Shown here in pieces: positions 3,101-51,942 of a DNA stretch of 64,000 nt (positions are counted from its first letter, which is position 1; every line of letters begins with the position of its first letter). The notes beneath the pieces are model-generated. The model did not search any database. It saw only the letters and a list, made by a program, of their open reading frames with translations, and had not been told where the DNA came from. The stretch is from Methanohalophilus sp. (GTDB lineage: Archaea > Halobacteriota > Methanosarcinia > Methanosarcinales > Methanosarcinaceae), in the NCBI RefSeq assembly GCF_030156785.1, contig NZ_JASGLW010000001.1, forward strand, positions 62,001 to 126,000, given 5' to 3'. Position numbers and translations under genes: made by a program.

Positions 3101-4946
3101 GGACAATGGAATTATTTGCAAGCCCTGCATCCACAAGCTCTTCAAGTTCACCCGGAGCCCATGTTCCGACATTGCGACCTTCACATAAGATCATTCGCTG
3201 CAGCACTGAGGCATTCAGGTGCTGTGTGGAATATCCTTCATTTTCAAGGGCTGCAAGCATTCCGTCAAGTGACTCAAAAAGGTTCAGATAGCTTGCTCCT
3301 ACATCCTGCTTACCCGGCGGATGATTGAAGTAGATCAGGGCTATCCTGCGATCTGCAGGAGATGTATTGCGCAAATCCGCATAGGATTCTGCAGTACCCA
3401 CCAGTTTATCCACCCTGTCCATTATGGGATAGCGGGTATAATCGTCTTCTGTGAACTGTGCCTCCACGGGGATAGGAGCTATTACCCCATCCATTTCGGG
3501 TTGGTCAAGTTTCCAGGTTATTGCGGTACCGTGCATTCCATAGGGGTTTGCCTGCCACTCCGCATATGTCTGGTAGGAAAGACTCACGGCTTTTAAGACC
3601 GGTACATCACTCTGGCTTAGAATATCCGCCGGCCCTGTGGCACCGAAGAAAAGGAAACTTATTATGGCATCCACACAATGGTTTTCATCGGAATTGTTGT
3701 AAAAAGTATTAATGGGACTCCCCCATGGGACATAACTGGCTATGACATTGTAGCCGTCCTCTTCCAGCATCCGTATCATGACATCCTCGGTATGCAGCTT
3801 ACCCTCCTGATAATCCCTGTAATACATTGCAATTCCGATCCATGGAGCACCCTCCGTATAATGCCCGCTCTGCTCATACCAGCTGTTGTATTCTGTCCGG
3901 TTTGTGAAAAGATGCTCAAAACTATCCCCTTCATAGTTGCATGGGGGAGCATCCGGATGATAGATCGCCGCCGGTGGTACAATCATTGTGGGTTTGACAT
4001 AGGGAGCAAGATCTTCCCGTTCATCTACCTCATTTGAAACATAAACAAACATCCTTATAAGGTTTTCAGGGAGAACAGTACGCCAATACCCTGGCCTGTA
4101 TTTGTCAAACAAAGTTTTAAGCACCTCAGAACCATCGTCTACGTTGTAGTAATAGGAATGTGCGGAACTAAAACCTCCAATCCCAAGCACGCTGATCCCT
4201 CTATCACCCGCAGCTTGAAGACTATCTTTATAGAGATCATACTGCGAGTCTGCTACATATTCTAGGATTATATCCCCATCGAAATCATCTATCTCCGCAT
4301 TGACATAGGGTGCAAGGGAAGTATCCCGGGCCATCATGGACATTGCAGTGAGGTTGGCAAAACGTATGTCAATTCCGTACTCTTCAAGTTCATCCTCTAC
4401 ACTGAGTATCGTCGCATGGTTGGGAAGCACCACCAGCAGAATAGAAGTGCGTAAAGGGGGTTTTGGTGATAAGTCCACCCTGCCTGCAACTTCATGGGCG
4501 GAATATACAAGTAACCGTTCCAGATTCTCTTCCGTCCATGTCCAGTAAAGTGAGGCGTTCTGCTGCACGTCTTCAGAGACGGTTGCAAGGAATGCGGAAC
4601 TATTCGTAAAACTGATAATTTCTCCGCTAATATTCCCGTTGCCGATTTCTTGTGATAGGTAGGTAATGTTTGCTTCAGCGCTTACATCCACAAATACGAT
4701 ATCCGCTTCAATCGACATCCCTCCGGGGATACAGTCATATTTGCTTACATTAAGCCCAAGTGTTGCATTTCCGATAATATTGTGTGGCACATCAGAATCT
4801 GTTACATATGCAAATTCTGTCATTGCGCTTGCTGTAGCTGTGTTTATTAATAGCATAACAAACAGGAAAAAAAACGCTGAAGAGGCGATTGATACCTGTT
4901 TCCACCGTACATCAGAATTATTTTCAGTAATATTTATTTTGATCAT
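129..4946 (-). CDS. Membrane-anchored CobN-like chelatase family protein (solo paralogue)
   Basis: A 1605-residue homologue of CobN/BchH, the large subunit of cobalt and magnesium chelatases. A hydrophobic N-terminal segment (residues about 20-45) followed by many NxS/T sequons, and a C-terminal membrane helix with a basic end (YHRKMK), place the body outside the cytoplasm, unlike classical cytosolic CobN. CobN core motifs are visible: HVGRHGTHEW from residue 721 and a CCHHTCGN cluster from residue 1458. A YVEGYEM motif precedes the C-terminal helix. I chose the ATG at 4946; a TTG seven codons upstream also fits, and neither has a clear ribosome site. There are no CobS/CobT or ChlI/ChlD partners nearby. 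It is paralogous to the gene at 27166, which sits with ExbB-type genes. The substrate (corrinoid, heme, F430 or free metal) is unknown. Confidence 0.85.
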   Translation of the reverse strand: MIKINITENNSDVRWKQVSIASSAFFFLFVMLLINTATASAMTEFAYVTDSDVPHNIIGNATLGLNVSKYDCIPGGMSIEADIVFVDVSAEANITYLSQEIGNGNISGEIISFTNSSAFLATVSEDVQQNASLYWTWTEENLERLLVYSAHEVAGRVDLSPKPPLRTSILLVVLPNHATILSVEDELEEYGIDIRFANLTAMSMMARDTSLAPYVNAEIDDFDGDIILEYVADSQYDLYKDSLQAAGDRGISVLGIGGFSSAHSYYYNVDDGSEVLKTLFDKYRPGYWRTVLPENLIRMFVYVSNEVDEREDLAPYVKPTMIVPPAAIYHPDAPPCNYEGDSFEHLFTNRTEYNSWYEQSGHYTEGAPWIGIAMYYRDYQEGKLHTEDVMIRMLEEDGYNVIASYVPWGSPINTFYNNSDENHCVDAIISFLFFGATGPADILSQSDVPVLKAVSLSYQTYAEWQANPYGMHGTAITWKLDQPEMDGVIAPIPVEAQFTEDDYTRYPIMDRVDKLVGTAESYADLRNTSPADRRIALIYFNHPPGKQDVGASYLNLFESLDGMLAALENEGYSTQHLNASVLQRMILCEGRNVGTWAPGELEELVDAGLANNSIVLLDVATYEEWFAELPSPIRDEVVATWGEPPGDMMVLERDGNRYIVIPAIKDGNVILTPQPARGWEEDVERLYHDLNIPVPHQYLAFYLWLQHSPAEGGFGADAIVHVGRHGTHEWLPGKMLCLDNTSYSDVLLGDLPNIYPYIMDGGGEGIQAKRRGYATLISHLTPPIAYGGTYGELRDLKYYLMQYERYSQTGSTEGMNKTKEKVIAILGNTTLDEEIGVEINDSNFAESAEEIVEYMEQVASETIPYGTHTFGIALPDSHVSMFLETMHTDLLMNTSCTILGYNYSDVSQGGLGNLENRTDAENTSKWLLGAFFNSSGNDDFRETVSEYFNITIDASLSERLNQTYEELNRTEGLLDPSIEMNSLIHALDGGYVIPGEQGDPVSNPSALPTGCNYYGFNSKKVPDPTTWEIGKDLADDMLVDYYELHGHFPDKMGVSMWSVETLRHNGVVESMVLRLMGAEPSFYYTRSGAFSKVYNDRVTVTPLDELTLTLSNGTVVQRPRIDVVITTSGLYRDTLQYQMRMLDVAVWEISGLNESVEENYVRKHSQEIEQHLLGFNESQKRDLMEYYLQADPGFAGDFPELAAKLSRHRIFGPPPGGYGVGIEKEIEAGGTAWDASNSTEAIGSMYIFRMANLYTSDEGGNVHYLGNYEDIFSENLKGTDVIFNSRSTSLYGVLDNDDFFQYVGGLAVAIEHVSGTSPEIKVVNLRGDPVVEPLEVFLARELRSRALNPLYLEGMMGSGYSGMKEIAEIVDNLWGWQVVSPELVKDYMWNDLYETLVLDRNEIGIKEAFNTQNPYAYQSAVARMLEAVRKDYWDAPEEVVERLVEEYVESVAENGVTCCHHTCGNPLLHEYVHGYISAPTTHVSKQAASDYLQLMETATGMSGSLPSKDNNPSFSGRGEARVITGASGNQTSEVVSVTGAGEENTPASQQSKKGDTYVEGYEMNRETPSSGEGVSSAFSAADVFGTVFILAAAVVIMYGYHRKMK

Positions 4947-5059
4947 AGTAATACCAAAATCAGACAATAATAATTATTAGTTATAAAGTTATTGATATTT
5001 ATAACATTAAATATTAATTTATATCTATTTGGTGTTACCAGATGTGAAGACAGCTTATT

Positions 5060-5605: not shown

Positions 5606-5710
5606 TCAAACATCTCCTGTAACTATGTAAGGTAAGGGAATATAACATATATAAGATATAAAGCAAAAGATAGGCTTCTTAAGAGCCGTTTGTATTTTGT
5701 CTTCATTGAC

Positions 5711-5935
5711 TTAATAATTTTTTGATTCAATTACAGGAACCGTGTAGATGTAACCTACATCCAACAACGGAAGATTGAATACCCCGAAAGTTTTTCGCGT
5801 CATCGAATTCATAATTAGCGACAACCGGTAAGATATTTCCACTTAACAATTTTGATACCCGGTGGCATCTTTAATTCCATGAAATGTTCGACGACCATGT
5901 CCCTGTTTTCAGGTTCCCATTTACTTATTTAACAG
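5711..5935 (-). pseudogene. Decayed small gene, possibly DUF3303-like
   Basis: On the minus strand an upstream frame reads KWEPENRDMVVEHFMELK and continues to a stop after KYLTGCR. A second frame supplies NYEFDDAKNF, and a third gives VFNLPLLDVGYIYTVPVIES and TAA at 5711-5713. Together they resemble a single small protein of about 75 residues of the DUF3303 kind, with at least two frameshifts and no good start codon. The family name is from memory and uncertain; the disrupted coding character is clear. Confidence 0.45.
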
Positions 5936-15895: not shown

Positions 15896-17239
15896 TTAAA
15901 GGTATAATTTTCTCAGTTTATCAGTCACAGCATCAACCTGCTCAACGGCTGTGCCAATGTATTTGTAAGGGTCTACAAGGGCCTCAATTTCGCTCTCTGT
16001 CAGCACATCCTTCACAGCTTCGTTTTCAAGGAGTGTTTCCTTGAGGTGTTTTCCTTCTTCGTGTGCCTGCATGGCAGCGATTCGCACAATCTCGTGGGCC
16101 TCCTGCCTACCGACTCCTCTTTTTGCAAGCTCGATCATGACAGCTTCTCCCATATTTAGTCCTCTGAGAAGCTCAAGATTACGTTTTATGTTTTCAGGAT
16201 AGAATCTGAGGTTATCAAGTACCCGGATTCCAAGATTTATAATATGATCTGTAAGGATGCAGCTTTCTGGGAACACCACACGTTCACATGATGAGTTGGT
16301 GAGATCCCTCTCATCCCAGAGTGTGTTGTTTAGTAATTCTGGTTCTACCATTGAACGAATAATCCTTGCAAGACCGCAAATCTGTTCGGATTTGATGGGG
16401 TTTCGCTTGTGGGGCATGGTGGATGATCCTACCTGTTTTTTGCCAAAGCTTTCCTCCACCTCTGCAAGTTCACTTCTTTGGAGGGTACGTAATTCAACAC
16501 CTATTTTATCAAGTGTTGTTGCAACGTTTGCCATCCACATAATGAATTCAGCATGCCTATCTCTTTGGATAATCTGATTTGAAACATCAACACTTCCAAG
16601 TTCGAGGAATTCCATTGCCTTTTTCTGGATATCTATTCCTTTTGACCCGAAGGCTGCCTGAGTGCCCACAGCACCGGTCATCTGTCCCACGATCACCCGG
16701 GGTTTGAGTTGGTTCAACCTTTCGATGTGTCTTCCTACTTCAGAAGCCCATATTGCAAAGCGAAGCCCGTAGGTTGTGGGAACGCCAATCTGCCCGTGTG
16801 TTCTTCCTGCACAGACAGTTTCTCTATGTTTTTCCGCCTGCCTGACAAGTACAGCAAGCAAACCCTTCATTTTGGGTTCTAGAACTTCGATGGCCTCTTT
16901 AAGCTGCAAACCGGTTGCAGTATCCAGCATGTCATTAGAAGTAGCTCCAAAATGAACCCATTTGGCAGCTTCCTCATCACATTTTTCGGATATAGCAAGG
17001 ACAACTGCCATCATATCGTGATGGATTTCATCCTCAATTTCCTTAACTCTGGCAATTTCGACTTTTGATATCCCTTCCTCTATCAATCTGGCTGCATCTT
17101 CAGGGATAAGCCCGACATAGGCTTCGGCTTTTGCAAGTGCAGCTTCTGCTTTGAGGATACACCGCAGCCGGTTGTCTTCACTCCATACCTGCTTCATCTC
17201 CTCAGTGCCATAACGAAATTCTATGGGGTGTATTGCCAT
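15896..17239 (-). CDS. purB: Adenylosuccinate lyase
   Basis: A 447-residue fumarase/aspartase-superfamily enzyme. It acts twice in purine synthesis, releasing fumarate from SAICAR and from adenylosuccinate. The family signature SSTMPHKRNPIKSEQ is present near residue 265, and RTHGQIGVPTTYG carries the catalytic His region near residue 140. Length and ends match archaeal PurB. The FmdE-like gene follows 18 bases after its stop. Confidence 0.97.
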   Translation of the reverse strand: MAIHPIEFRYGTEEMKQVWSEDNRLRCILKAEAALAKAEAYVGLIPEDAARLIEEGISKVEIARVKEIEDEIHHDMMAVVLAISEKCDEEAAKWVHFGATSNDMLDTATGLQLKEAIEVLEPKMKGLLAVLVRQAEKHRETVCAGRTHGQIGVPTTYGLRFAIWASEVGRHIERLNQLKPRVIVGQMTGAVGTQAAFGSKGIDIQKKAMEFLELGSVDVSNQIIQRDRHAEFIMWMANVATTLDKIGVELRTLQRSELAEVEESFGKKQVGSSTMPHKRNPIKSEQICGLARIIRSMVEPELLNNTLWDERDLTNSSCERVVFPESCILTDHIINLGIRVLDNLRFYPENIKRNLELLRGLNMGEAVMIELAKRGVGRQEAHEIVRIAAMQAHEEGKHLKETLLENEAVKDVLTESEIEALVDPYKYIGTAVEQVDAVTDKLRKLYL

Positions 17240-17412
17240 TATAAATCACCTGATTATAATAAATTGATTTAGTATTCCTGAAGCCTTTAGAGCTTTTCAA
17301 CCAATAAATAAGCTTTTGTAATCCATGAGTTTTGTACGGTTATCCCATAAGCATTAAATATCATTTACATTATATTCTAATATACAGTAAGTTTACTCTG
17401 GAGAGTATTTCT

Positions 17413-20400
17413 ATGTCACAAAATGTTTTCGAGTTATCTGAAAGCCAGAAAAAAGAGCTTTCTGACATCTTTGGGGAACGTGTGAACTTTTCGAAGAGGG
17501 AGCGCCATTTTTACAATCATGATGTAGGTGCTCTTCCTTCAATGGTGCGCAGGTTTCTTGGTAAAGCAGAACCGGCCGCAATTGTAAAGTTAAATGATGA
17601 GGATGATGCTAAAAAACTGCTGAAATTTGCAGCGAACTATTCCATCCCCATTGTTCCAAGGGCAGGTGCAACATCCGGGTACGGAGGTGTAATTCCAACA
17701 AAAGGGGGAATTATTGCAGATGTTGGCCTGCTTAACAAAATCTATGATATTGATCATGAAGCTATGGAAGCCACCGTTGGTGCAGGTATAGTCTGGGAAC
17801 GTCTCGAACAGAAGCTGAACCATGTGGATCTTTCCGTTTGTGCCATGCCTTCAAGTGCACCTGCTGCCACAGTGGGTGGTTGGCTTGCCCAAAACGGTGT
17901 AGGCTACGGAAGTTATGAATACGGCTGGTCACAGGATACTTTTGTAGGTGCAAGGATTGTGCTCCCGAATGGCGAAGTCAGGGAGTTTGAAGGAAACGAA
18001 CTTGCTGATATTGTTGGCAATTACGGCAGTCTTGGTATAATCACACAGGTTACGATCAAGATTCGCAAACATGAAAGGACAATTGCTGTTTCTGCTGCTT
18101 TTAAGGATGCTGCCTCTCTGCAAAAGGCCATTGAGCTAATCGGGGAACGCAAGATTCCGCTGTGGTCAATCTCTTTTATAAATCCAGATTTTGCCGAGAT
18201 GAAAAATAATGCTCCTGCGAGGTTGCATCATGGTGAACCTGTGAAAGAAGATCGTATTAATCTACCGAAGTCTTTTATCTGCAATTTCTTCTATCCCATA
18301 AACAGGAATATAATTGGTCTCGAAGATGCCATTAAGGATGCTGGAGGCGAAGTCCTGCCTGCAGAAATTTCCGAGCACGAGTCTGGTGAATGGTTCAGGA
18401 CAATGAAAGTCAAGCGACTTGGCCCTTCATTTATTCCTGCAGAAGTAGTAATTCCTGCTGACAAACTCAGCAAGGTAATTGCCGAGATCAACAAAACCGT
18501 CTCCTTGCCGGTACTCATGGAAGGAATGGTGGCAAAGGGAGATGATATAGTTCTTCTCTGTTTCATTCCACATTCAGAAAGATCATTCAAATTCAATCTG
18601 GCCTTCCCGCTGGCTCTGAGCATCAACCGCATTGCAGAAGAGAACGGCGGAAGGATGTATGCTACCGGACTGTACTTCGCAAAGGATTCTCCTAAAGTCT
18701 ATGGCGAACACTTTAGAAAGCTCATGGAGCTAAAGAAGAAATTTGATCCAAAGGACGTGATGAATCCCGAAACCCTTACTGGAAGGGGAAGTTTCAGTAC
18801 GGCAATTTCCATGTCAAGGACTTTTGAACCCATTATGCGTGTTGTGGGCAACATGTCCGGCGTAGGGGAGACAAAGTTCAGCACGCAGAAGGGTATCCCT
18901 GCAGACGTAATTTCTCATGCTTACACATGTGCCCAGTGCGGTTATTGTGTAAACGAGTGTGACCAGTATTACGGTCGTGGATGGGAATCACAGTCTCCCC
19001 GCGGAAAGTGGTTCTTTATCAAGGAATACCTTGCCGGCAGGGACAAAATGGTACAGGAGCAGGTTGATACTTTCCTGGCCTGTACGACATGTGAACTCTG
19101 TGATTTCAGATGTCAGCTTGATCTTCCCATCAATGATTCATGGATGACTATGAGGAATGAACTGGTTGTGAAACAGGGCAAGATGACTATTCCGCCATTT
19201 GAGATCATGGCTTCAAGCCTGCTCAAGGAAAGGAACATCTGGGGAGAGTACCTGAAGAAGAGGGAAAACTGGATGCCTGAGGATCTTAAACCAAAGATCA
19301 AAGACAAGGCAGAGTATGCTTACTTTGCAGGCTGTACCGCTTCCTTTGTCGAGAAGGATATTGCTGAAGCTTCAGTACGTTTGCTGACGGATGCAGGAAT
19401 GGATATTACATATCTTGGCAAGGAAGAATCATGTTGTGGTATTCCTATGCTTACAGCCGGTAAGTGGGATGTTTTCGAAAAAATTATGAGAATGAATATC
19501 GAGAACATGAGGAAGAAAGGCGTCAAAACCGTTATAACATCTTGTCCTGCATGCTGGCTGGTATGGGATACATTCTATAGACAGTGGGCAGAGAAACTTG
19601 GAATTGAATATAATTTCGAAGCAAAGCACTACTCACAAGTTCTTCAGGACAAGCTCGATGTTCTTTCAAAGAAATTCGTCAAACCACTGGACAGGGTAGT
19701 TACCCTCCATGATGCATGCCACATGGGTCGTGCAGGCGGCATATACGAACCGCCAAGGGATCTTATCAAATCAGTTCCGGGAGTTAAGTTCCGTGAGATG
19801 GAACACAACAGGGAAAATGGTCATTGTTGTGGTTCAGTACTGACACTTGTTTCTGACCCTGAAGTTGCGAATGTTGTTGGTAACATAAGACTTAAAGAAG
19901 CTGAAAATGCAGGTGCTGACTTGATGGTTGCAGCATGTCCGTGTTGTCAGGTACAGCTCAGGATTGCTGCAGATAAAAGTGGCAGTCCGGTGGAAGTGCA
20001 GGACTTGTCTGCAACTGTTGCCCGCAGTCTTGGGTATGATATTCCTGACACTACAAATACTGCACTGACGGCATGGGTAACCTTTGATCAGATGATACAT
20101 CTGCTAAGACCAGAGAATATGACTGATCTAATGGTAGAGTTACTTCCGCAGATGATGGATGCAATGCCGGCTCCCCTGAAACCCATGATGAAGATGGTAA
20201 AATATGTTCCTGGTATGGATCGGGTGATGAAGCCAATGATGCCTATCATGATGCCAAAACTCCTGCCTGGAATGATGCCAAAGGTCATGCCGGATATGCT
20301 TGAAGCTGTCGGAAGGCGTGTGCAGATGTCTGATGACCTGAGGGAGCAGATGCCTGATCTTATGCCAAAAGCAATGGAGAATCTGATGCCTAATATGCTT

Positions 20401-23790: not shown

Positions 23791-23814
23791 CTTGATTGCC
23801 GTTAAGCAATCAAG
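23791..23814 (-). terminator. Hairpin overlapping the cobW stop codon
   Basis: CTTGATTGC and GCAATCAAG form a perfect 9-bp stem around a 6-base loop that contains the TAA of the CobW-type gene. No long T-run follows on the minus strand, so termination is weakly supported. The geometry mirrors the hcp terminator 300 bases away. Between the two (23521-23790) I see only AT-rich sequence and a 12-base palindrome TTGCTTAAGCAA at 23691-23702. Confidence 0.5.
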
Positions 23815-24860
23815 TCCTCAATTTTTATTGTATGATGATGCTCAGAGGCATCGCCTTCTTTTGTGAAGTGTGTTCCATGTTCTTTCAATGATTTTTCTGT
23901 AAATTCTTTCATGAAAGATTGCAGTTTTTCCTGATCCACATTTGTGACAGCGCAAAGCAGAGCAAGAAACGGGCTCATTTTTGTCTGATTCTCCAATACC
24001 TGTATGCTGATTTCCGCTTCAGCTGATGTCACACTTGCACGAATCAGTTTATCGCCTGTACTAACAGCAATTTTCACATGTCCTACAAATTCAGGATTTA
24101 ATTCAAGGATAGCGTCTTTTAGGTTATTGAGGACACCAATTGCAACGTTTTCTGCCGTATCTTCATTGATTGTACCTTCTTCAATCTGATATTTGATTGA
24201 GTAGGCTGCAACCCCTGATTCTTCAATGGAGTTTCTGGAGTTTTCTTTTCCAACTCTTGTGCTGTTCTGTGCAAGAATCTCAATAAACTGTCGGAAACTC
24301 TTGTTTTCTTTGGTTGCTGAAGTCCTGAAAATAGTTGCATCAGGATTGAGCTCCTGCAACGCATTGAATACAGCCTCTACCTTTTCTTTAGGTGTAATAT
24401 CAGTCTTGTTTATAACAAGGATTTCCGCATCCTCAATCTGTGTCCGGATAAATGCTGGTGCCTGCTGGATTTCCGCACTAAAACGGCTGCCATCAATAAT
24501 GTTAACAAGCGGAGCAAAAGTAACCCCTTCAATATCCATTATCTCCAGATCTTTTCTGATTTGCTTTGGAAACGCCAGCCCCGTAGGTTCGATAATAATT
24601 ACATCGGGTTCGTATTCTTCTTTCAATTTCTGGAGAGTATATTCCATACTGATTTTAAGAGTACAGCAGATGCACCCGTTTGTAATCTCCCGGGTCTGAA
24701 TTCCGGATGTTGAGAGTATTGTTCCGTCAAGTCCAACCTCTCCAATTTCATTGACAATGATTGCGATCTTGTTCCCCTGCTCGGTAAGGATTTTTCCAAG
24801 ATTGAGCAACGTAGTTGTTTTCCCGCTGCCTAAAAATCCACCAATGATTATGATTTGCAT
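23802..24860 (-). CDS. CobW-type (COG0523) metal-chaperone GTPase
   Basis: A 352-residue G3E-family GTPase. Walker A is GGFLGSGKTT at residue 7, the metal-binding CICCTL motif (CxCC) lies near residue 63, followed by IIEPTGLAFP, and the NKTD base-specificity motif is near residue 152. The C-terminus ends in a His-rich ASEHHHTIKIEDL tail. COG0523 proteins insert or deliver metals such as Zn, Co or Fe. It is divergent from the DUF2162-ExbB-DUF2149-CobN operon, with about 500 bases of shared regulatory space. A role in metal supply linked to that operon is plausible but inferred. Confidence 0.9.
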   Translation of the reverse strand: MQIIIIGGFLGSGKTTTLLNLGKILTEQGNKIAIIVNEIGEVGLDGTILSTSGIQTREITNGCICCTLKISMEYTLQKLKEEYEPDVIIIEPTGLAFPKQIRKDLEIMDIEGVTFAPLVNIIDGSRFSAEIQQAPAFIRTQIEDAEILVINKTDITPKEKVEAVFNALQELNPDATIFRTSATKENKSFRQFIEILAQNSTRVGKENSRNSIEESGVAAYSIKYQIEEGTINEDTAENVAIGVLNNLKDAILELNPEFVGHVKIAVSTGDKLIRASVTSAEAEISIQVLENQTKMSPFLALLCAVTNVDQEKLQSFMKEFTEKSLKEHGTHFTKEGDASEHHHTIKIEDLIA

Positions 24861-25357
24861 AAGTACACCTAATGATCTGAAGTGATGAGGAAAAGGGCCT
24901 CAATTATTTATTTGTTATGAGTGCTTTATGTCCTTGCATTTTTTTACAGGATGCAACTCATAAAGATGGAATCCCAGTGATCAGGCATCTGTATTTGAAC
25001 CACTAGCTGTCACAGTCATAAAACCCAATTGATGGCTCAGTAGGATTTACAAATAGGATTTCTACAGAGCCCTTTAACTCATCTTGAATATCTTAAAATC
25101 AACATCTTTTAGCAATATCAGTACCACCTCAGTACCAACTTGATAAATAGGAAATGTTCTTTTGGACATCATGTTAGCTTTTGGGCTAACATGCAGTATC
25201 CAACAGGATATCATGTATAATCCAGTTACCAATTCTTAAATATGATATCTTTTTTGTTAAAATGGATCAAGTTAACTTGCCTCTCATTTCAAAACGGAAA
25301 TAATGACTCATCATGAATCACCTATAGATATTATAAATTTTTCAGAGGTTATTATAA
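24861..25357. other. Divergent intergenic region, cobW / DUF2162 operon
   Basis: A long AT-rich region with no convincing ORF. It holds a perfect inverted repeat at 25170-25193 and a duplicated TAGGATTT near 25049 and 25056. A TATA-like TTATAAATTT at 25331-25340 lies just before the DUF2162 start. The TATA is so close to the ATG that transcripts from it would be nearly leaderless, so an upstream promoter may also exist. Confidence 0.45.
25170..25193. promoter_or_regulatory. Perfect 9-bp inverted repeat between cobW and the CobN operon
   Basis: CATGTTAGC and GCTAACATG are exact inverted copies flanking TTTTGG. Lying midway between divergent genes, it could be the operator for a dimeric metal- or tetrapyrrole-responsive regulator. 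It could also form an RNA hairpin. Confidence 0.55.
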
Positions 25358-26035
25358 ATGGATGTTGTTGCACTCACAGTTATTGGGATTATGACTTCTA
25401 TTCTGTTATTTGCAGTTAAGGCAGGCATAGGTTGTGGATGTTCTACAATCCACAATAGAAATATTTTTATAATTGCATCCACCTACCTTGTTATGTCAAC
25501 TATAATAGGGATAGTACTGACACGCGTGGATATTTCCTATCTTATGGAAATATCAAGTGCAGGTATTGTAATACATGCCTTAATGGCACTGTTGCTGATC
25601 GGTGTAGGGGTTTATACCACCAAGAACTGGTACACAGGCAAGGATGTTTCCCACCGCACTTTTGCTCTTATGTCCATACCGTGTCCGGTTTGCCTTGCAG
25701 CGCTTTTTATATCGATCATGCTTCTAGGTTCCTCGCTTGAAAGAAGTACTGCAATTCTGGGTTTTGTTGTGGGTGTTATATTCTTTATAGCCGTGGTTGT
25801 TTCCTCGCTAACTTTGAGGAAGCTGAAAAAAGGACCAGACACACTTGGCAACATCATGACATTCTTAGGTATTTTCTATTTGCTTGGAGCAATAATCGCT
25901 CCTGCATATATGAAAATAAAGCAAATGGGTCTGCCTGAATTTGTAGGTCCTGAAGTTGAGTTGATTCCCTTTGTAGGTTTCTCCTTATTGATTGCAATTG
26001 GATTTGGCTTAAACAGACTAAAAACCCAATCTTGA
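25358..26035 (+). CDS. DUF2162 membrane protein (HmuT-like position)
   Basis: A 225-residue integral membrane protein with about six or seven hydrophobic segments, of the DUF2162 family of predicted transporters. Two Cys pairs stand out: C26/C28 in AGIGCGCST and C109/C112 in IPCPVCLAAL, both at membrane segment ends. They could bind metal or undergo thiol redox. GAGGT precedes the ATG. It is followed after 21 bases by an ExbB-type gene, then DUF2149 and CobN. I recall the same four families together in bacterial hmuSTUV loci. A transport role is inferred. Confidence 0.8.
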   Translation: MDVVALTVIGIMTSILLFAVKAGIGCGCSTIHNRNIFIIASTYLVMSTIIGIVLTRVDISYLMEISSAGIVIHALMALLLIGVGVYTTKNWYTGKDVSHRTFALMSIPCPVCLAALFISIMLLGSSLERSTAILGFVVGVIFFIAVVVSSLTLRKLKKGPDTLGNIMTFLGIFYLLGAIIAPAYMKIKQMGLPEFVGPEVELIPFVGFSLLIAIGFGLNRLKTQS

Positions 26036-26056
26036 TTTTAGGAGTGAATAAATAAA

Positions 26057-26680
26057 ATGGCAATTGAATCATCGCTTTTCCAGATAATGTATACAGTATC
26101 TTCTTCTTTACTGTATCCTGTAGTTATCCTTCTTTTGCTTGCAGTAGTGTCCTCTTTAGGTCTGATAGGAGAATTTATTTCAGAATATTCCCGAAGACAT
26201 CGTAATGTCGCACAACTTGAGCAGATTGGGACGCAAGTTCAGCAAAGCATAACTAACTCTGATTTTAAATCTGCTGCGGCTTCACTTGAAAAAATTGACC
26301 AGAATCCTCTTGTTACTTCTTTTGCAAAGGATGCTGCACGGCATCTCGGGGAGGGAGTATCCACTTCAATAGACTGGCTTTCCGAGGAATATGAAGTCCG
26401 CATGACCAAGAATCTTGAATTCACAAAGATTCTTTCTACAGTATCCCCCATGCTTGGTCTCATGGGCACCCTGATCCCATTAGGTCCTGCTCTTATAGGT
26501 CTTGCGGAAGGAAACATTCTTCAGCTTGCCAACAACCTTATGGTTGCTTTTGCAACTACTGTGCTGGGTCTTTTTGCAGGTATCGTAGGATATGTTCTCA
26601 CACTGGTGCGTAAACGGTGGTACTGGCAGGATATGGCTGACATTAATTATTTACTTGATTGTATGGAGGCAGAGAAGTGA
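26057..26680 (+). CDS. MotA/TolQ/ExbB proton-channel family protein
   Basis: A 207-residue protein with three membrane helices: residues about 12-38, then a cytoplasmic loop (SEYSRRHRNVAQ.. to about residue 125), and two C-terminal helices. These contain the family signature VSPMLGLMGTLIPLGPALIGLAEG and NNLMVAFATTVLGLFAG. The family forms pentameric channels that use the ion-motive force to drive an attached protein, as ExbB drives TonB and MotA drives flagella. The next gene starts inside its stop codon (GTGA overlap), as expected for an ExbB/ExbD-type pair. Archaea lack an outer membrane and TonB, so the driven partner is presumably the CobN-like protein. Confidence 0.92.
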   Translation: MAIESSLFQIMYTVSSSLLYPVVILLLLAVVSSLGLIGEFISEYSRRHRNVAQLEQIGTQVQQSITNSDFKSAAASLEKIDQNPLVTSFAKDAARHLGEGVSTSIDWLSEEYEVRMTKNLEFTKILSTVSPMLGLMGTLIPLGPALIGLAEGNILQLANNLMVAFATTVLGLFAGIVGYVLTLVRKRWYWQDMADINYLLDCMEAEK

Positions 26681-27036
26681 GGAAACGCGACTTCCGCCGG
26701 AAAGGGCTGTTGTACGAAGGAGACGAGCAGAATCCCCTTACAGGGGTTGCAAATCTTTTTGACATAGCCATGGTGTTTTCCGTAGCGTTGCTGGTAGCCT
26801 TGGTAATGTCTTTCCAGCTTCCGGAACTCCTCTCGCCTACCGAGGATGTAACAATCGTCAAAAATCCCGGGCAGGACAACATGAAAATCATCATCAAGGA
26901 AGGGCAGGAGATTGAGGTGCTGAACATGACCGATCAGATAGGCGGCGGAACCGGCGAGGCACTTGGAACTGCTTACAAACTTGCTGACGGGCGTGTGATT
27001 TACGTGCCTGAGTCCGGTAATGAAACAGGAGGATAA
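26677..27036 (+). CDS. DUF2149 protein, ExbD-like partner
   Basis: A 119-residue protein with an N-terminal basic cytoplasmic segment (RKRDFRRKG), an NPLTGVANLFDIAMVF stretch leading into one membrane helix (residues about 28-50), and an external C-terminal domain. The layout, one helix with an Asp at its start and a soluble outer domain, is that of ExbD/TolR/MotB. I use the GTG at 26677, which overlaps the ExbB-type stop and has GGAGG upstream; the frame opens earlier at a TTG. It is translationally coupled to the ExbB-type gene. The family is DUF2149. Confidence 0.85.
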   Translation: MRKRDFRRKGLLYEGDEQNPLTGVANLFDIAMVFSVALLVALVMSFQLPELLSPTEDVTIVKNPGQDNMKIIIKEGQEIEVLNMTDQIGGGTGEALGTAYKLADGRVIYVPESGNETGG

Positions 27037-27165
27037 TTTTTTTCAGCAGTAGAGCAATTTAGTTTGTTATATAGAAATCCAATTTGAATTGGATTAATTT
27101 GTAGTGCATCCCGGCTGCTGGCTGGTAACCTTACCGGGATACACTGCATACCATCGGGTGATAAT

Positions 27166-30100
27166 ATGCATATGAAAAAAGGTGTCTTATTAGTTTTAAG
27201 CGTATTGTTTTTGCTGGCAATTTCAGTGTCAGCGGTATCGGCAGTAGAGAACAAGATTAATGTAACTTACATAGGTCTGGATGAGCCCGGTCAAATTCTC
27301 CTAAATGCATCGCTGAGTAATCCTTATTCTGATCAGATAAATTATACTTTTGTATCTGCTTATGATGGTTGGTCAGTCAGTGATGAAATTGTTAACGCTT
27401 CCACGAACGGTCTTCTGGAATTACTTGGTGATCAGGATGTGATTTTCTGTGACATGCTTTATTCAGCGGTTTATGATCCTTTAAATGATACCCTATATGA
27501 AGCTCATCTAAATGGAACTTCAATATTAGCTATCAGATCAGCTGATACTCCTTCATACTTTGATTACATTTCTGATGGTGACGATGAGGATAAAATATGT
27601 ACATATTTTAATAATATGGACAGTGCATCTTATTCCGGGAAAAAGAGTGCTGAGAATCTTTTAATCTACCTCAGCAGGAACTACGGGAATCATCCATCAA
27701 TAACAGACAGCTGGCCGATGATTAACATTACCTATGTAGCATATGATCCAAGTGCAGCTCTTGAAAAAGCAAGTAAAACCAATCCTTATGCTGAATTTAT
27801 CAGCTTCAATTACCTTCCTTCGTATAACAAAACCGATTTTATCATAAGTGACGAACTTATAACAGCTTCAGAATCAGGCTTCCTTTCCCAGCAGGATGTC
27901 ATTTTCTGTGATATGATATTTTATAATGAATTTTATAACAATACATTTTATCCTGCACACGAAAGTGGTGCATCTTTACTGGATGTCAACTCGTATGGAA
28001 CTCCTGAGTACTTTGATTATGTTTCCAACGGTTCTTTGAATGATAAAATCTGCACATATTATGGGAATGCAGAAGTTTCAGGTTCTGGTCTTAAAAGTGC
28101 AGAAAATTTCCTGATGTATCTTTCAAGAGATTTTGGAAATCACCCTGAAATCACTGATGAGTGGCCACAATTGAATTTCACTTACATTTATTACACGCAC
28201 AATATACCACTTGAGAATGCAGTTCTAACAAACCCTTACGCAGAATTTATTGATTTTACTTATCTACCTTCTTATTCACCAGATTGGTCGAATATGAGTG
28301 ATGAACTCATCAACGCATCAGAATCAGGTTTTCTCTCGCAACAGAATATTATTTTCTGTGATATGATTGGTTATAACGATGACTATAACAATACATTTCT
28401 GGCTGCCCACGACCATGGTTCGGCATTGCTTGATATAAATTCAGCGAACACGCCTTCCTTCTTTGATTATATTTCCAATGGCACTGAAAATGATACCATA
28501 TACCTCTACTACAGCAATATGGGCACGGACACTTCTGGGAAAGTTAATGCTGAGAATTTATTGATTTACTCATCCCGTGAATACGGAAATATGTCTTTTC
28601 TGACAGAAGGATGGGTACTTTCGGATGAAGGAAATATTATTCCTGCTGCTGGCCTGTACCATCCGGATTATGAAAATAGGTTCTTTGAAACCACAGAGGA
28701 ATATTTAGAATGGTATGAAAATGATACTGCAGACCACTATGTGTATGATCCTGAATTGCCAACGATAGGAATGTGGTTCCATCGTAATGATATTACTGAA
28801 GATCATCTGGATGTTGTGGACGCTTTAATTTCGGATATCGAAAGCAAAGGTTGCAACGTTATTGTCGGATTCGATACTTTTGATAATATTACCTATTACT
28901 ATTGCGACGAAAATGAAACACCACTTGTTCAATGTGTGATCTCTCTCAAGAGCTTCAGGTTGAACTACTGGGACAATGAACGTGGTATTCAGGAGCTTGA
29001 ACACCTGAATGTACCGGTTCTCAGGGGAATCGTTGCAGATGTACCTACAAATCCTGATCCGGCAGATGCCAACAGGGGAATTCCCAATTCCCAAATGGTG
29101 TACAAGACTCTTGCACCAAATGTTGATGGTATTTTTGAGTATATTTTAATTGGCAATGCAGTTTATGATCCGGATACTGAAAGTACTTCCTATGTACCAC
29201 TTTACTCGCAGATTGACTGGATCAGTAACCGTTCCATCAAGTGGGCAAACCTTAAACTGGAGGATAACAGTGACAAGAAAGTTGCTGTAATTTACTATAA
29301 TTATCCTTCAGGTAAGGATAACATTGGTGCCAGCTATCTTGACACAATAACAAGCATGAGACTCTTGCTTGAAGAAATGGATGCTGCAAACTATACAGTT
29401 TCTAACATTCCGAAAAACAATTCAGTGCTTCTGGAAATGTTACAGTCCCAAGGTCTAAATGCAGGTTCATGGGCTCCAGAGGTACTTGATGAGATGGTCG
29501 AGAACAGGAAAGAATGGGGACTGCAACTCATACCGATGGAACAGTATCACACATGGTTTGAGGAGGAAGTGCCTCAGGAGCTTCAGGATCAGGTTATTGA
29601 GGAATGGGGTGCTCCATGGGATGAAGATCTGCCGCAGAACAAGTCACTGATGATATGGGAAAACGAAAGCGGTAGATATCTTGTGATCCCTGCTGTTCAG
29701 TTTGATAATGTATGGCTCATGCCGCAACCTGCACGTGGATTCTTACAGAATGACGATACTCTTTATCACAGTAGTATTGTCCCTCCACCTCATCAGTATA
29801 TAGGTTTCTATCTGTGGCTGAACAAAGAATGGAAGCCTGATGCAATAATCCACGTTGGTACCCACGGAACTCATGAGTGGCTCCCTGGACAAACCTACGG
29901 GCTCAATAGGACTGCGGAATGGGCGCCCATATTGCTTCAGGATCTTCCCAACATATATCCCTACATAGTTGCGAATGTGGGAGAGGGTCTGACGGCTGAA
30001 TATCGTGGAAATGCATTAATAATTGATCACCTTACACCAACCCTTGAAAGATCCGGTAGCTATGGGGAAATTGCCAATCTTTCCCAGCTCATGCAGACGT

Positions 30101-32322
30101 ATTATGGACCTGAAATGAGTGAGCAAACCAAGCAGGCTTACCAGATGGAGATCATTGATGAAATGGTTAATTTAAATCTGGATGTTGATCTTGGAATCAA
30201 TGTCACAGAGCTATATTCATACAATACAACTCAGTTTGGTGATTTCATCAAGAATGTACTCCATGAATATATTGAAGAGGTAGAGGGTGAAAATATGCCC
30301 TATGGAATGCACATTCTTGGACAGGTTCCGTCCACAAACATGTCAGATCCAAGCAGGGATGAGCTTTCTGCCATGGTATATGCTATGCTTGGAAACAAAT
30401 TTGATGAAAATGTAACTCTTGCTTTCTATCCAGAAGATGACTATCCGTTAGGTATTCCTTTCAATGATACGAGAGTAACACAACTTGTCTGGGAAGTTGT
30501 AACTAATGAAACCGGTGTCAATGATTCCCAGATTATGGTATATGGTGAGATCAATGAGTCTGTTACTGCCGATCTGGAACGTGGTCTCATTTACCGTGAC
30601 CGTCTCCTTGCCTCTGCAATTGAGATGGATCGTGTGATGGGAGCCCTATCTGCAGAGTATATTTCTGCAGGTCCAGGCACAGATCCTGTCATGAACCCAG
30701 CAGCTGTACCAACAGGAAGGAATTTCTATGGAGTTGATCCGGAACTTTATCCATCCGAAGCAACATGGAGAATGGGAAAATATCTTGCAGAACAATTGCT
30801 TCAGGATTATTATGAAAAGTATGGTGAATATCCGAGAAAAGTTTCATTTTCAAGGTTTGGTACAGAATTTATCAGAGATCATGGAACTCTCGAGGCTGAA
30901 ATCCTGTATCTACTTGGAGTAGAGCCGGGGTGGGATGCTAATAATAAGATTGATCTTAATAAATTTGAGCTGATACCAGAGGAAGAACTTGGTCCAAGCT
31001 ATGGGGAGTATCCTGGCAGACCCAGAATTGATATTGTTTATACAACTGCAGGAATGAGGGATGCTTTCCCCGATAAGATCAAAATGATCGATTATGCGGT
31101 TCAGATGGCAAGTGAAGCTCCTTCAGGAAACTACACAAATTATGTGAATGAAAGCAGTTCAGCTATATATGATGAATTGTATGCCCAGTTTATTCAGGAG
31201 ATGAATGAAGAAGAGGCTTCAAAGCTTGCAAGGCAACTTTCAACCATGCGATGTTTTGCTGTAAAGGATGGTACATATGAAATAGGAACGGGTAACGCAA
31301 TTGAGGTAAGTAGCTCATGGGAGGACGAAAGTGAAATTGCTGAACTTTATCTTGACAAGATGGGTTATGTTTACGGCCAATCTCTCTGGGGTTTCAAGAG
31401 TTCAGAATTGTTGATTGGGAATCTTCGAAACGTGGATGCATCCGTTCATTCAGATTCATCGAATCTCTACGATACACTGGACAATGATGACTTCTTCCAG
31501 TACTATGGTGTATTAAATCTTGCAACAAGGTATGTATCAGGGAAGACCCCCGAAATGTACGTTTCCGATACCCGTGATCCAGATGCTGCCAAGATGGTGG
31601 GGATGCAGGAATATCTTATGAAAAATCTGCGATCCAGATACTGGAATCCCAAATGGGTAGAAGGAATGCAAGAATCCGGTTATGCTGGTGGCAGAATGAT
31701 GGCCGAATTTGTGGATAATCTCTGGGGATGGGAGGTATCAGATCCTGAGCTTGTTGATGACAGTGTCTGGCAGCAGACATATGAGATTTACACAAGTGAA
31801 GAAATGAAAGAGTGGTTCAATGAGAACAATCCACATGCATATCAATCAATTACTGGCAGAATGATCGAAGCCATAAGGAAAGGATACTGGACACCATCGG
31901 AAGAAGTAATTGAACAACTGGTTCAGGATTACTCTGAATCAGTTGAAGAATACGGAGTTGCATGCTGCCACCATACCTGTGGAAATCCACTTCTGAATGA
32001 ATATATGCAGGGATTACTCTCAGCTCCAACTGTGTTGCGCTCATCAAGTCATGGCAGTCTCACAGCAAAGGTCGTAAACTCGTCATCTATGAGTCCCGGT
32101 AATCAGACATCATCAACGGATGGAGGTTATGGTGAATCCCTTACCGAACCCACGCCTGAAGCAAATGATGATTATGTTGAAGGCTACGAAATGACCAAGG
32201 AATCACAGCAAGCTGAAGAATCCGGAGGTATGTCATTCTCGGGTGCTGATATTGTTGGTACAGTACTCGTACTGGCAGCAGTGGGTGCCATGTATGTCGG
32301 ATACAGGAGAAGAAGTCTCTAA
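27166..32322 (+). CDS. Extracytoplasmic, membrane-anchored CobN-like protein (HmuS-like)
   Basis: A 1718-residue protein. Residues 1-27 are a signal peptide or anchor (MKKGVLLVLSVLFLLAIS). Residues 31-483 are three tandem repeats of about 150 residues, and the CobN chelatase body runs from about 490 to 1640. It contains HVGTHGTHEW from residue 896 (H896, H900, H903) and CCHHTCGN from residue 1600. After a Ser/Thr/Gly-rich stalk come YVEGYEM, one membrane helix and the basic end YRRRSL. Many NxS/T sequons fit a glycosylated surface protein. GGTGAT precedes the ATG. It is the last gene of the DUF2162-ExbB-DUF2149 operon. Cytosolic CobN inserts cobalt with CobS/CobT and ATP; neither is here, so the ion-motive force could replace ATP. 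Whether it inserts or removes metal, and from which tetrapyrrole, is unknown. Confidence 0.88.
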   Translation: MHMKKGVLLVLSVLFLLAISVSAVSAVENKINVTYIGLDEPGQILLNASLSNPYSDQINYTFVSAYDGWSVSDEIVNASTNGLLELLGDQDVIFCDMLYSAVYDPLNDTLYEAHLNGTSILAIRSADTPSYFDYISDGDDEDKICTYFNNMDSASYSGKKSAENLLIYLSRNYGNHPSITDSWPMINITYVAYDPSAALEKASKTNPYAEFISFNYLPSYNKTDFIISDELITASESGFLSQQDVIFCDMIFYNEFYNNTFYPAHESGASLLDVNSYGTPEYFDYVSNGSLNDKICTYYGNAEVSGSGLKSAENFLMYLSRDFGNHPEITDEWPQLNFTYIYYTHNIPLENAVLTNPYAEFIDFTYLPSYSPDWSNMSDELINASESGFLSQQNIIFCDMIGYNDDYNNTFLAAHDHGSALLDINSANTPSFFDYISNGTENDTIYLYYSNMGTDTSGKVNAENLLIYSSREYGNMSFLTEGWVLSDEGNIIPAAGLYHPDYENRFFETTEEYLEWYENDTADHYVYDPELPTIGMWFHRNDITEDHLDVVDALISDIESKGCNVIVGFDTFDNITYYYCDENETPLVQCVISLKSFRLNYWDNERGIQELEHLNVPVLRGIVADVPTNPDPADANRGIPNSQMVYKTLAPNVDGIFEYILIGNAVYDPDTESTSYVPLYSQIDWISNRSIKWANLKLEDNSDKKVAVIYYNYPSGKDNIGASYLDTITSMRLLLEEMDAANYTVSNIPKNNSVLLEMLQSQGLNAGSWAPEVLDEMVENRKEWGLQLIPMEQYHTWFEEEVPQELQDQVIEEWGAPWDEDLPQNKSLMIWENESGRYLVIPAVQFDNVWLMPQPARGFLQNDDTLYHSSIVPPPHQYIGFYLWLNKEWKPDAIIHVGTHGTHEWLPGQTYGLNRTAEWAPILLQDLPNIYPYIVANVGEGLTAEYRGNALIIDHLTPTLERSGSYGEIANLSQLMQTYYGPEMSEQTKQAYQMEIIDEMVNLNLDVDLGINVTELYSYNTTQFGDFIKNVLHEYIEEVEGENMPYGMHILGQVPSTNMSDPSRDELSAMVYAMLGNKFDENVTLAFYPEDDYPLGIPFNDTRVTQLVWEVVTNETGVNDSQIMVYGEINESVTADLERGLIYRDRLLASAIEMDRVMGALSAEYISAGPGTDPVMNPAAVPTGRNFYGVDPELYPSEATWRMGKYLAEQLLQDYYEKYGEYPRKVSFSRFGTEFIRDHGTLEAEILYLLGVEPGWDANNKIDLNKFELIPEEELGPSYGEYPGRPRIDIVYTTAGMRDAFPDKIKMIDYAVQMASEAPSGNYTNYVNESSSAIYDELYAQFIQEMNEEEASKLARQLSTMRCFAVKDGTYEIGTGNAIEVSSSWEDESEIAELYLDKMGYVYGQSLWGFKSSELLIGNLRNVDASVHSDSSNLYDTLDNDDFFQYYGVLNLATRYVSGKTPEMYVSDTRDPDAAKMVGMQEYLMKNLRSRYWNPKWVEGMQESGYAGGRMMAEFVDNLWGWEVSDPELVDDSVWQQTYEIYTSEEMKEWFNENNPHAYQSITGRMIEAIRKGYWTPSEEVIEQLVQDYSESVEEYGVACCHHTCGNPLLNEYMQGLLSAPTVLRSSSHGSLTAKVVNSSSMSPGNQTSSTDGGYGESLTEPTPEANDDYVEGYEMTKESQQAEESGGMSFSGADIVGTVLVLAAVGAMYVGYRRRSL
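27256..28614 (+). repeat. Three tandem ~150-residue repeats in the CobN-like N-terminus
   Basis: Protein-level repeats begin at 27256, 27721 and 28171. Each opens with a strand such as INVTYIGLD, INITYVAYD or LNFTYIYYT. It continues NPY..I.FTYLPSY, then SDELI.AS..GFLSQQ, VIFCDMI.YN, and ends SAENLLIYLSR..GN. Repeats 2 and 3 are the most alike, suggesting recent duplication. Confidence 0.85.
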
Positions 32323-50565: not shown

Positions 50566-51942
50566 TTGACATTCACAAAATCAGTTACTTGCTATGATTT
50601 TTATGACCGTGCCCAGACCGGTGAGAAATGCAGTCAGGATGACTGGGATCTGATGACCATTCCAATGAAGGCAATGGAACTCAAGCAGAAATACAACCTT
50701 GACTTTGGTAAAGAGTTCATTCCAACTGACAAGGATCAGATGGAGAGACTTTTCAAGGCAGGTTTTGAGATGCTTCTTGAGTGTGGTGTATGGTGTACCG
50801 ACACTCATAGAATCGTCAAATACACAGAAGACGAAATCTGGGATGCAATCAACAACCCACACAAGGAATTCCAGCTTGGTACTGGCAGGGATGCTGTCTA
50901 CTGCAGAAAGAGGTCTGTTGGAGACAAAGCCAAACCAATCGTACAGGGTGGTCCAACAGGTTCCCCTATTTCCGAAGATGTCTTTGTTCCTGTTCACATG
51001 AGCTATGCTCTGGAGAAAGAAGTTGACACCATTGTGAACGGTGTTATGACGTCAGTTCGTGGCAAACCACCAATCCCCGGCAGTCCATATGAAGTACTCG
51101 CTGCCAAGACCGAGACACGTCTGATCAAGGACGCATGCTCCATGGCAGGTCGTCCGGGTATGGGAGTTTAGGGTCCAGAGACTTCCCTGTCAGCTCAGGG
51201 TAACATTTCTGCCGATTGTGTCGGCGGTATGGGTTGCAATGACAGTCACGAAGTTTCACAGCTTAACGAACTCAAGATCGATCTGGATGCAATTGCCGTC
51301 ATTGCTCACTACAAATCCAACAGTGACATAATCATGGACGAACAGATGCCAATCTTCGGCGGATACGCCGGTGGTGTCGAGGAAACCACCATTGTTGACG
51401 TGGCAACCCACATTAACTCCATGGTCATGAGCAGTGCCAGCTGGCACCTTGACGGTCCTGTCCACATCAGATGGGGATCCACCAACACCCGTGAGACACT
51501 CATGATTGCCGGCTGGACATGTGCCACCATCAGTGAATTCACTGACCTGCTTTCTGGTAACCAGTATTACCCATGTGCCGGTCCATGTACCGAGATGTGC
51601 TTGCTTGAAGCAGCTGCCCAGTCCATCACAGACACCGCATCCGGTCGCGAAATCCTGTCCGGTGTTGCATCTGCAAAGGGTGTCATCACTGACAAGACAA
51701 CCGGTATGGAAGCACGTATGATGGGTGAAGCAGCCCGCGCAACCGCAGGTGTTGAGATCGAAACAGTTAACGAGATTCTAGACAAACTCGTAGCAAGCTA
51801 TGAGAATAACTATGCAAATGCACCTGCAGGCAAGACGTTCCAGGAATGCTATGATGTTGCAACCGTTACACCGACTGACGAATATGTCAAGGTTTACGAC
51901 GGTGCAAAGAAGAAACTCGAAGACCTCGGTCTTTCATTCTAA
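50566..51942 (+). CDS. mtmB: Monomethylamine methyltransferase with pyrrolysine
   Basis: A 458-residue TIM-barrel methyltransferase when the in-frame TAG at 51169-51171 (codon 202) is read as pyrrolysine. Its reactive ring binds the amine for transfer to MtmC. Sequence on both sides is unmistakably MtmB: YDFYDRAQTGEKC at the start, GRPGMGV just before the TAG, and GPETSLSAQGNISADC just after. The start is TTG at 50566, with GGGGAGG eight bases upstream. The end is TAA, followed by a strong terminator. PylS, PylT and PylBCD are not in the window but must exist in the genome. Confidence 0.98.
51169..51171 (+). other. Pyrrolysine UAG codon 202 of mtmB
   Basis: The amber codon sits at the canonical active-site position. 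The downstream 100 bases are the region described as the PYLIS stem-loop in Methanosarcina; it encodes the conserved active-site segment, so structure and coding constraint cannot be separated here. Confidence 0.97.

Follow-up and report, generated by a model that had tools for sequence, protein, structure and literature searches.

A DUF2162-ExbB-DUF2149-CobN gene unit in Methanohalophilus and its proposed role as an ion-driven chelatase at the cell surface

The gene block and its motor subunits

Genes of the ExbB and CobN families meet in a block of the archaeon Methanohalophilus sp., which we analyze here together with its relatives. The block lies in a stretch of 64,000 nucleotides (hereafter the window; contig NZ_JASGLW010000001.1, positions 62,001 to 126,000), part of a 252-kb contig in a genome of 1.55 Mb. 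Genes for a DUF2162 membrane protein, an ExbB/TolQ-type channel subunit, a DUF2149 protein and a large CobN-like protein follow one another tightly on the plus strand (25358-32322). The linkage of these genes across genomes, the topology of the CobN-like protein and a short motif in its tail point to a membrane motor that may act on a chelatase-like body outside the cell. The features concerned are as follows:

25358-26035, + strand: DUF2162 membrane protein of 225 amino acids, putative metal permease (Pfam PF09930, E = 4e-62)
26057-26680, + strand: ExbB/TolQ-type ion channel subunit (Pfam PF01618, MotA_ExbB, E = 8e-12, above the cut-off)
26677-27036, + strand: DUF2149 protein with one membrane helix and a small extracellular tail (Pfam PF09919, E = 2e-36)
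27166-32322, + strand: CobN-like protein of 1718 amino acids, predicted to be secreted and C-terminally anchored (PF02514 over residues 457-1581, E = 2e-292)
27256-28614, + strand: three tandem head-type domains of the 1718-residue CobN (residues 31-183, 186-333 and 337-483)
29863-29865, + strand: His900 of this CobN in the motif HVGTHG, equivalent of the catalytic His538 of Bacteroides thetaiotaomicron (B. theta) HmuS
31489-31491, + strand: Asp1442 of this CobN in LDNDDFFQYYG, at the place of HmuS His1209
32176-32193, + strand: juxtamembrane motif VEGYEM, candidate docking peptide for DUF2149/ExbB
32242-32304, + strand: C-terminal membrane anchor of this CobN, from hydropathy, followed by RRR
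129-4967, - strand: second anchored CobN-like protein, 1612 amino acids, with a tail of VEGYEM and membrane helix (motif at 258-275)

The window ExbB is a regular member of its family: its profile matches the ExbB/TolQ proteins of the PDB (E = 1.6e-4), and its T138 and T168 align with the pore threonines T148 and T181 of Escherichia coli ExbB. DUF2149, which most likely starts at the GTG at 26677 overlapping the ExbB stop rather than at the TTG at 26659, has a single N-terminal membrane helix. At the start of this helix is an acidic residue, D35 (numbered from the TTG; codon 26761-26763), which is Asp in 47 of 48 sequences and Glu in the remaining one, that of Runella. The register found by hhalign places D35 on D25 of ExbD, at an overall probability of just 7-13%; no ExbD was among the PDB profile matches of DUF2149, and an AlphaFold2 model of it, with a helix at 26-51, was poor. 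From this topology and the position of the Asp we propose that DUF2149 takes the role of ExbD. DUF2162 has invariant or nearly invariant K21, C26, H73, D96 and P108-C109-P110-x-C112 in 38 sequences. Its AlphaFold2 model is all-helical (predicted local distance difference test, pLDDT, 84.6), and a fold search of the PDB with the model gave nothing significant. A kinship of DUF2162 with HmuT or with the Runella permease was considered and dropped, as profile comparison shows no relationship, and Bacteroidota HmuT gave no detectable match to the DUF2162 profile. DUF2162 would be the importer of the metal.

A first-pass annotation of the window had named these genes, a CobW-type GTPase gene divergent to the block (profile E = 5e-44) and an ExbD-like topology of DUF2149, all of which agree with the Pfam matches and with the residues described above. 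It had also seen no CobS/CobT ATPase; in the whole genome PF01078 gives just partial, weak matches inside larger open reading frames of 476-718 amino acids, and no AAA+ partner was found. Its view of the GTPase as a part of the system did not hold, as the gene is not conserved beside the unit: its sole close orthologue among nine related genomes sits elsewhere without synteny, and other CobW copies are found in genomes without the unit. The genome has one ExbB gene, one DUF2149 gene and two CobN genes. The second CobN, far from the motor genes, is of the same class as the 1718-residue protein and is probably the second client of the single motor.

The CobN-like body and its tail

An extracellular, membrane-anchored body of the 1718-residue CobN, which the first-pass annotation had assumed, is supported by its signal segment, its C-terminal membrane helix and its enrichment in N-glycosylation sequons relative to the soluble CobNs of related genomes. 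These features speak against a cytosolic body, which that annotation had named as grounds for refuting its proposal. Nearly all long CobNs (about 1400-2600 amino acids) carry a hydrophobic segment at the N-terminus and a membrane helix at the C-terminus, whereas the short CobNs of related genomes (1209-1310 amino acids) have neither. Most archaeal long CobNs have 2-3 sequons per 100 residues, some 2-4 times as many as their composition predicts, and the short ones have 0-0.3 per 100 residues; the 1718-residue CobN has 39, which is 2.5 times the expected number.

The tail of the anchored proteins carries a further mark. The motif [VI]xGxx[ML] is found in 76 of 87 anchored CobNs, where shuffling would give 1.6, and in one of 18 other CobNs. 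It stands 10-22 residues (median 18) ahead of the C-terminal membrane helix, in a linker that is otherwise of low complexity. It reads VEGYEM in Methanosarcinaceae, VEGFEM in Trichlorobacter, VKGYKM in Runella, VQGQVM in Azospirillum, VEGLRL in a Comamonadaceae bacterium and VEGRRL in a planctomycete; the tail of ANME-1 (anaerobic methanotrophic archaea) has KRGKVM, and Bacteroidota HmuS has at most a weak version. Of 61 Methanosarcinaceae genomes, 43 contain a DNA pattern coding for VEGYEM and none contains its reversed control, and the matches checked were all in CobN tails or a relic of one, except one by chance; a looser pattern, written for the VxGxVM variant, was uninformative because of its degeneracy. 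This tail motif is new. Its range includes both archaea and proteobacteria, and soluble CobNs essentially lack it. An orphan CobN tail (VEGYEM, helix and RRR) at about 5668-5922 of locus L214, in a genome with neither CobN nor DUF2149, is a relic of a lost system.

What could such a tail do? It is a candidate for the point of coupling to the motor. A C-terminal sorting signal has a motif, a helix and a basic tail in that layout, and the VxGxxM peptide with its membrane helix and arginines resembles it, so that the tail could instead be a sorting or processing signal. We consider this unlikely in view of the near confinement of the exact motif to CobNs, its distance of about 18 residues from the helix and its sharing by proteobacteria, Runella and Trichlorobacter.

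The body itself keeps the features of the superfamily. His900 in HVGTHG corresponds to the catalytic His538 of HmuS in H[FV]G[TA]HG, and an equivalent of Glu577 is aligned; both are superfamily-wide rather than specific to HmuS. At the place of the HmuS sequence LSLDHxxEFMGG, which contains His1209 and Glu1212, the window CobN has Asp and Gln in LDNDDFFQYYG, and Asp1442 at the His1209 position is the same residue as in cobaltochelatase CobN. The heme ligand His254 of the HmuS head/neck (HGR) is aligned with Ser; for the head ligand Met79, each head repeat has a Met that is displaced by one position. The Met-rich insertion of domain IV has 75-264 residues, 6-30 of them Met, in three HmuS proteins; the window CobN has 34 residues there, with one Met. 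Differing from HmuS at His1209, at His254 and in this insertion, the window CobN is not an HmuS by the published criteria (PMC12583661). The three head domains are 48-56% identical to one another, and their profile also matches the HmuS head; relatives have from one to at least seven copies, the latter in a CobN at 16700-19901 of locus L057.

In a phylogenetic tree the anchored class, including HmuS, is split from cytosolic CobN, ChlH and the short archaeal CobNs with a support of 100/100, inner placements being weaker. The CobN of Marinobacter, encoded in a cob operon with no ExbB nearby, falls on the anchored side with a long branch. Some anchored paralogues have Phe in place of the catalytic His (L043, 15070-19626; L135, 10485-15200), and the short cytosolic archaeal CobNs (L170-L176) are Cys-rich, often with CC[CH] where HmuS has His1209.

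Linkage and gene contexts in other genomes

DUF2149 is present in 132 of 200 genomes of the class. Its loci were collected by place (40) and by a scan of the genome collection (80 more), and linkage was counted for 69 non-redundant loci flanked by 6.5 kb or more on each side. ExbB adjoins DUF2149 in all 69, and DUF2162 is present in 63. A CobN gene is within reach in 50 of the loci, and in 44 it stands immediately next to the unit on the same strand. In the Methanosarcinales DUF2149 is almost always accompanied by the motor half of the operon; Methanosarcina acetivorans, for one, has DUF2149, ExbB and CobN. CobN tracks DUF2149: among 40 genomes it was found in 24 of 24 with DUF2149 and in one of 16 without (Fisher p = 4e-10, not corrected for phylogeny). 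The single exception, G177, has only short CobNs. The CobN genes on its contig C14 and on contig C6 of G114, a genome of a different family, are identical in scores and lengths, and those of G177 may come from a mis-binned contig, G114 being ANME-2-like.

Pairs of ExbB and DUF2149 without DUF2162 or CobN were recorded at L056, L059, L097, L111, L116 and L121, and in several such loci, of Methanolobus type, a large S-layer-domain protein adjoins the pair. This protein was considered as an alternative client of the motor, an idea that no shared tail motif supports. An ArsR-type regulator is divergent to DUF2162 in L107 (1806-2444), L122 (8149-8664) and L128 (8233-8757), and its family is represented in 13 of the loci fetched.

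Which metal would such a unit handle? In Trichlorobacter lovleyi the order is TonB receptor, DUF2162, ExbB, DUF2149 and CobN, followed by a separate ExbB-ExbD-TonB set, under two tandem cobalamin riboswitches; this organism has CbiK and lacks CobS/T (PMC3403914). Among archaea, including ANME-1 relatives, the unit abuts CbiM-CbiQ-CbiO in L154, L130 and L138, with a BtuC-type permease beside CbiM and CbiO in L138, and cbi genes in L129 and L152. Nickel contexts are seen in Runella, where the unit is embedded among hyp genes together with a protein of weak similarity to NicO, and in Azospirillum, where NikR is near; ATP-binding cassette (ABC) importers accompany it in Azospirillum and Diaphorobacter. 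True hmu operons occur in Aureibacter, Prevotella and Bacteroides. ExbB, DUF2149 and CobN are kept together in bacteria while the permease is DUF2162, a NicO-like protein, HmuT or none; ExbB-DUF2149-CobN is thus the constant core, around which receptor and permease differ. A search for RNA elements in the window found none near the unit; an Rfam PYLIS_1 pyrrolysine insertion element at 51169-51268 (+ strand) is no surprise in a methylotrophic methanogen, where such an element should accompany a pyrrolysine-containing methyltransferase.

These contexts make cobalt or nickel the most likely metal in this archaeal branch. The first-pass annotation had proposed a tetrapyrrole, with heme, a corrinoid and F430 as candidates; a tetrapyrrole is retained, and heme is no longer the best guess. 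The genome has a cytosolic CbiX/CfbA and two CbiM, so that an enzyme at the surface is not needed to insert cobalt or nickel, which favors acquisition over insertion there and suggests that the metal would be removed from its ligand. Cobalt is bound very tightly in corrins, and for this reason the unit may act on some other tetrapyrrole of nickel or cobalt rather than on a finished corrinoid, or it may capture corrinoids intact.

The proposed mechanism and comparison with known systems

On this basis we propose, with about even confidence, that the unit is a surface chelatase driven by the ion-motive force, in which ExbB-DUF2149 powers CobN and DUF2162 imports the metal. The ExbB ring with DUF2149 would admit H+ or Na+ by way of D35 and the pore threonines, and the resulting movement would be passed to the CobN ectodomain through its C-terminal helix and the VxGxxM juxtamembrane peptide. 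The ion motor would thereby replace the ATP-driven AAA+ partners (ChlI/D, CobS/T) of the cytosolic class I chelatases. The ectodomain, with its head domain or domains as loading sites, would bind a metal-tetrapyrrole, or a chelate like it, from outside the cell, and DUF2162 would carry the metal inward. Linkage, topology, family assignments, tail motif and residue conservation are observed directly; coupling of the motor to CobN is well supported, although we infer it, as we do the metal, the direction and transport by DUF2162. That the motor serves CobN rather than a TonB receptor is most strongly supported by two observations: archaea have no outer membrane, and in Trichlorobacter a second, dedicated ExbB-ExbD pair with TonB is present, so that ExbB-DUF2149 is presumably not for the receptor there either.

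Several observations weigh against this proposal. CobN is not within reach in 19 of the 69 DUF2149 loci, six loci hold ExbB-DUF2149 with neither DUF2162 nor CobN, and genome G120 has DUF2149 with only a short, soluble CobN. Kinship of DUF2149 with ExbD was not established by profile comparison, and its structural model is poor. The cobalt and nickel contexts come from relatives, with none nearby in the window itself, and removal of the metal from corrinoids is chemically hard. The CobN-like proteins of Methanosarcina barkeri change with the iron/sulfur source (PMC10846266). HmuS without anchors strips iron from heme in vitro without ATP (PMC12583661), so that the motor is not strictly needed for HmuS chemistry; an inner membrane fraction, by contrast, stimulates the HmuS of Porphyromonas gingivalis (PMC13227078).

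Other explanations have been weighed against the same data. CobN might be an energized surface receptor for intact corrinoids or chelates that passes its ligand to DUF2162 or to a BtuCDF or energy-coupling factor (ECF) importer, as the BtuC-type permease, CbiM and CbiO of L138, the multiplied head domains, the loss of the catalytic His in some anchored paralogues and the ABC importers of Azospirillum and Diaphorobacter would suggest. The equivalents of catalytic His538 (His900) and of Glu577 are, however, kept in the window CobN and most relatives, and DUF2162 is probably small for a corrinoid importer; we hold this to be a minority possibility. A role like that of Bacteroides HmuS, in which the archaeal unit would take iron out of heme at the cell surface, appears quite unlikely to us: anchored CobNs and HmuS share one side of the 100/100 split, equivalents of HmuU, HmuV, His538 and Glu577 are present and Fe(II)/Cys and FeS2 raise the levels of CobN-like proteins in M. 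barkeri (PMC10846266), but the HmuS-specific His1209/Glu1212, His254 and Met-rich insertion are absent, a HmuT homologue was not found and the contexts are those of cobalt, nickel and corrinoids. The weakest alternative, in which the motor would work for DUF2162 or some other process, CobN being a neighbor that shares only its regulation, would account for the DUF2162-ExbB-DUF2149 triad without CobN within reach in 13 loci and for the lack of an anchored CobN in G120, but it is improbable given the constancy of bacterial ExbB-DUF2149-CobN as the permease changes, the co-occurrence of CobN with DUF2149 and the tail motif.

For the ion-driven surface chelatase a wider view is offered more tentatively, at somewhat less than even confidence: an ExbB-DUF2149 motor pulling on the VxGxxM peptide would be a third way of powering a class I chelatase, besides AAA+ ATPases and the ATP-free HmuS, with a core shared by archaea and bacteria and combined with interchangeable receptors and permeases for cobalt, nickel and heme iron; in Bacteroides, HmuU/HmuV would then energize HmuS and not the TonB receptor. 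It would give the ion motor a role in an archaeon without an outer membrane, cast doubt on the view that HmuU/HmuV serve the TonB receptor, and perhaps explain the cobalt and nickel supply of methanogens and methane oxidizers, both of which have a high demand. The archaeal use of HmuS/CobN/ChlH homologues has been called unclear, complete hmu operons being lacking (PMC12583661), and a proteomic study of M. barkeri makes a similar remark (PMC10846266).

The closest comparison is with hmuYRSTUV of Bacteroidota and its heme de-chelatase HmuS (PMC12583661; PMC13227078), in which a CobN-like ectodomain is likewise anchored, ExbB is HmuU and HmuV is DUF2149 (PMC10434189); the catalytic His538 of its HmuS has its equivalent in the window CobN, on the same side of the tree. 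The hmuSTUV-like organization recognized in the first-pass annotation accordingly stands for ExbB, DUF2149 and the anchored CobN, and fails for the permease, as HmuT does not match DUF2162, and for any identity of the window CobN with HmuS. The six-gene set is incomplete in the archaeal unit, which lacks HmuY and HmuR and has DUF2162 in place of HmuT; its CobN differs from HmuS in Asp for His1209, in the absence of His254 and of the Met-rich insertion, in tandem head domains and many N-glycosylation sequons, and archaeal contexts are those of cobalt and nickel. The corrinoid-linked CobN cluster on a plasmid of Trichlorobacter (Geobacter) lovleyi has the identical DUF2162-ExbB-DUF2149-CobN order and a VEGFEM tail, but also its own TonB receptors, ExbB-ExbD-TonB and tandem cobalamin riboswitches; its cobN-exbB-exbD-tonB part was described earlier, the role of CobN being left open (PMC3403914). 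CobNST and ChlHID have the class I chelatase body in common with the window CobN, and CobN also the Asp at the His1209 position, but they are cytosolic and driven by AAA+ ATPases, whereas the window CobN is predicted to be extracellular in a genome in which no such partner was found. With TonB-ExbB-ExbD and Tol-Pal the archaeal unit shares the ExbB family and the membrane Asp of the partner subunit, but it has no TonB or TolA, its partner is DUF2149 and its presumed client is CobN. Judging from these gene sets, a unit of motor plus chelatase appears to recur in bacteria for heme iron, for cobalamin or cobalt and for nickel.

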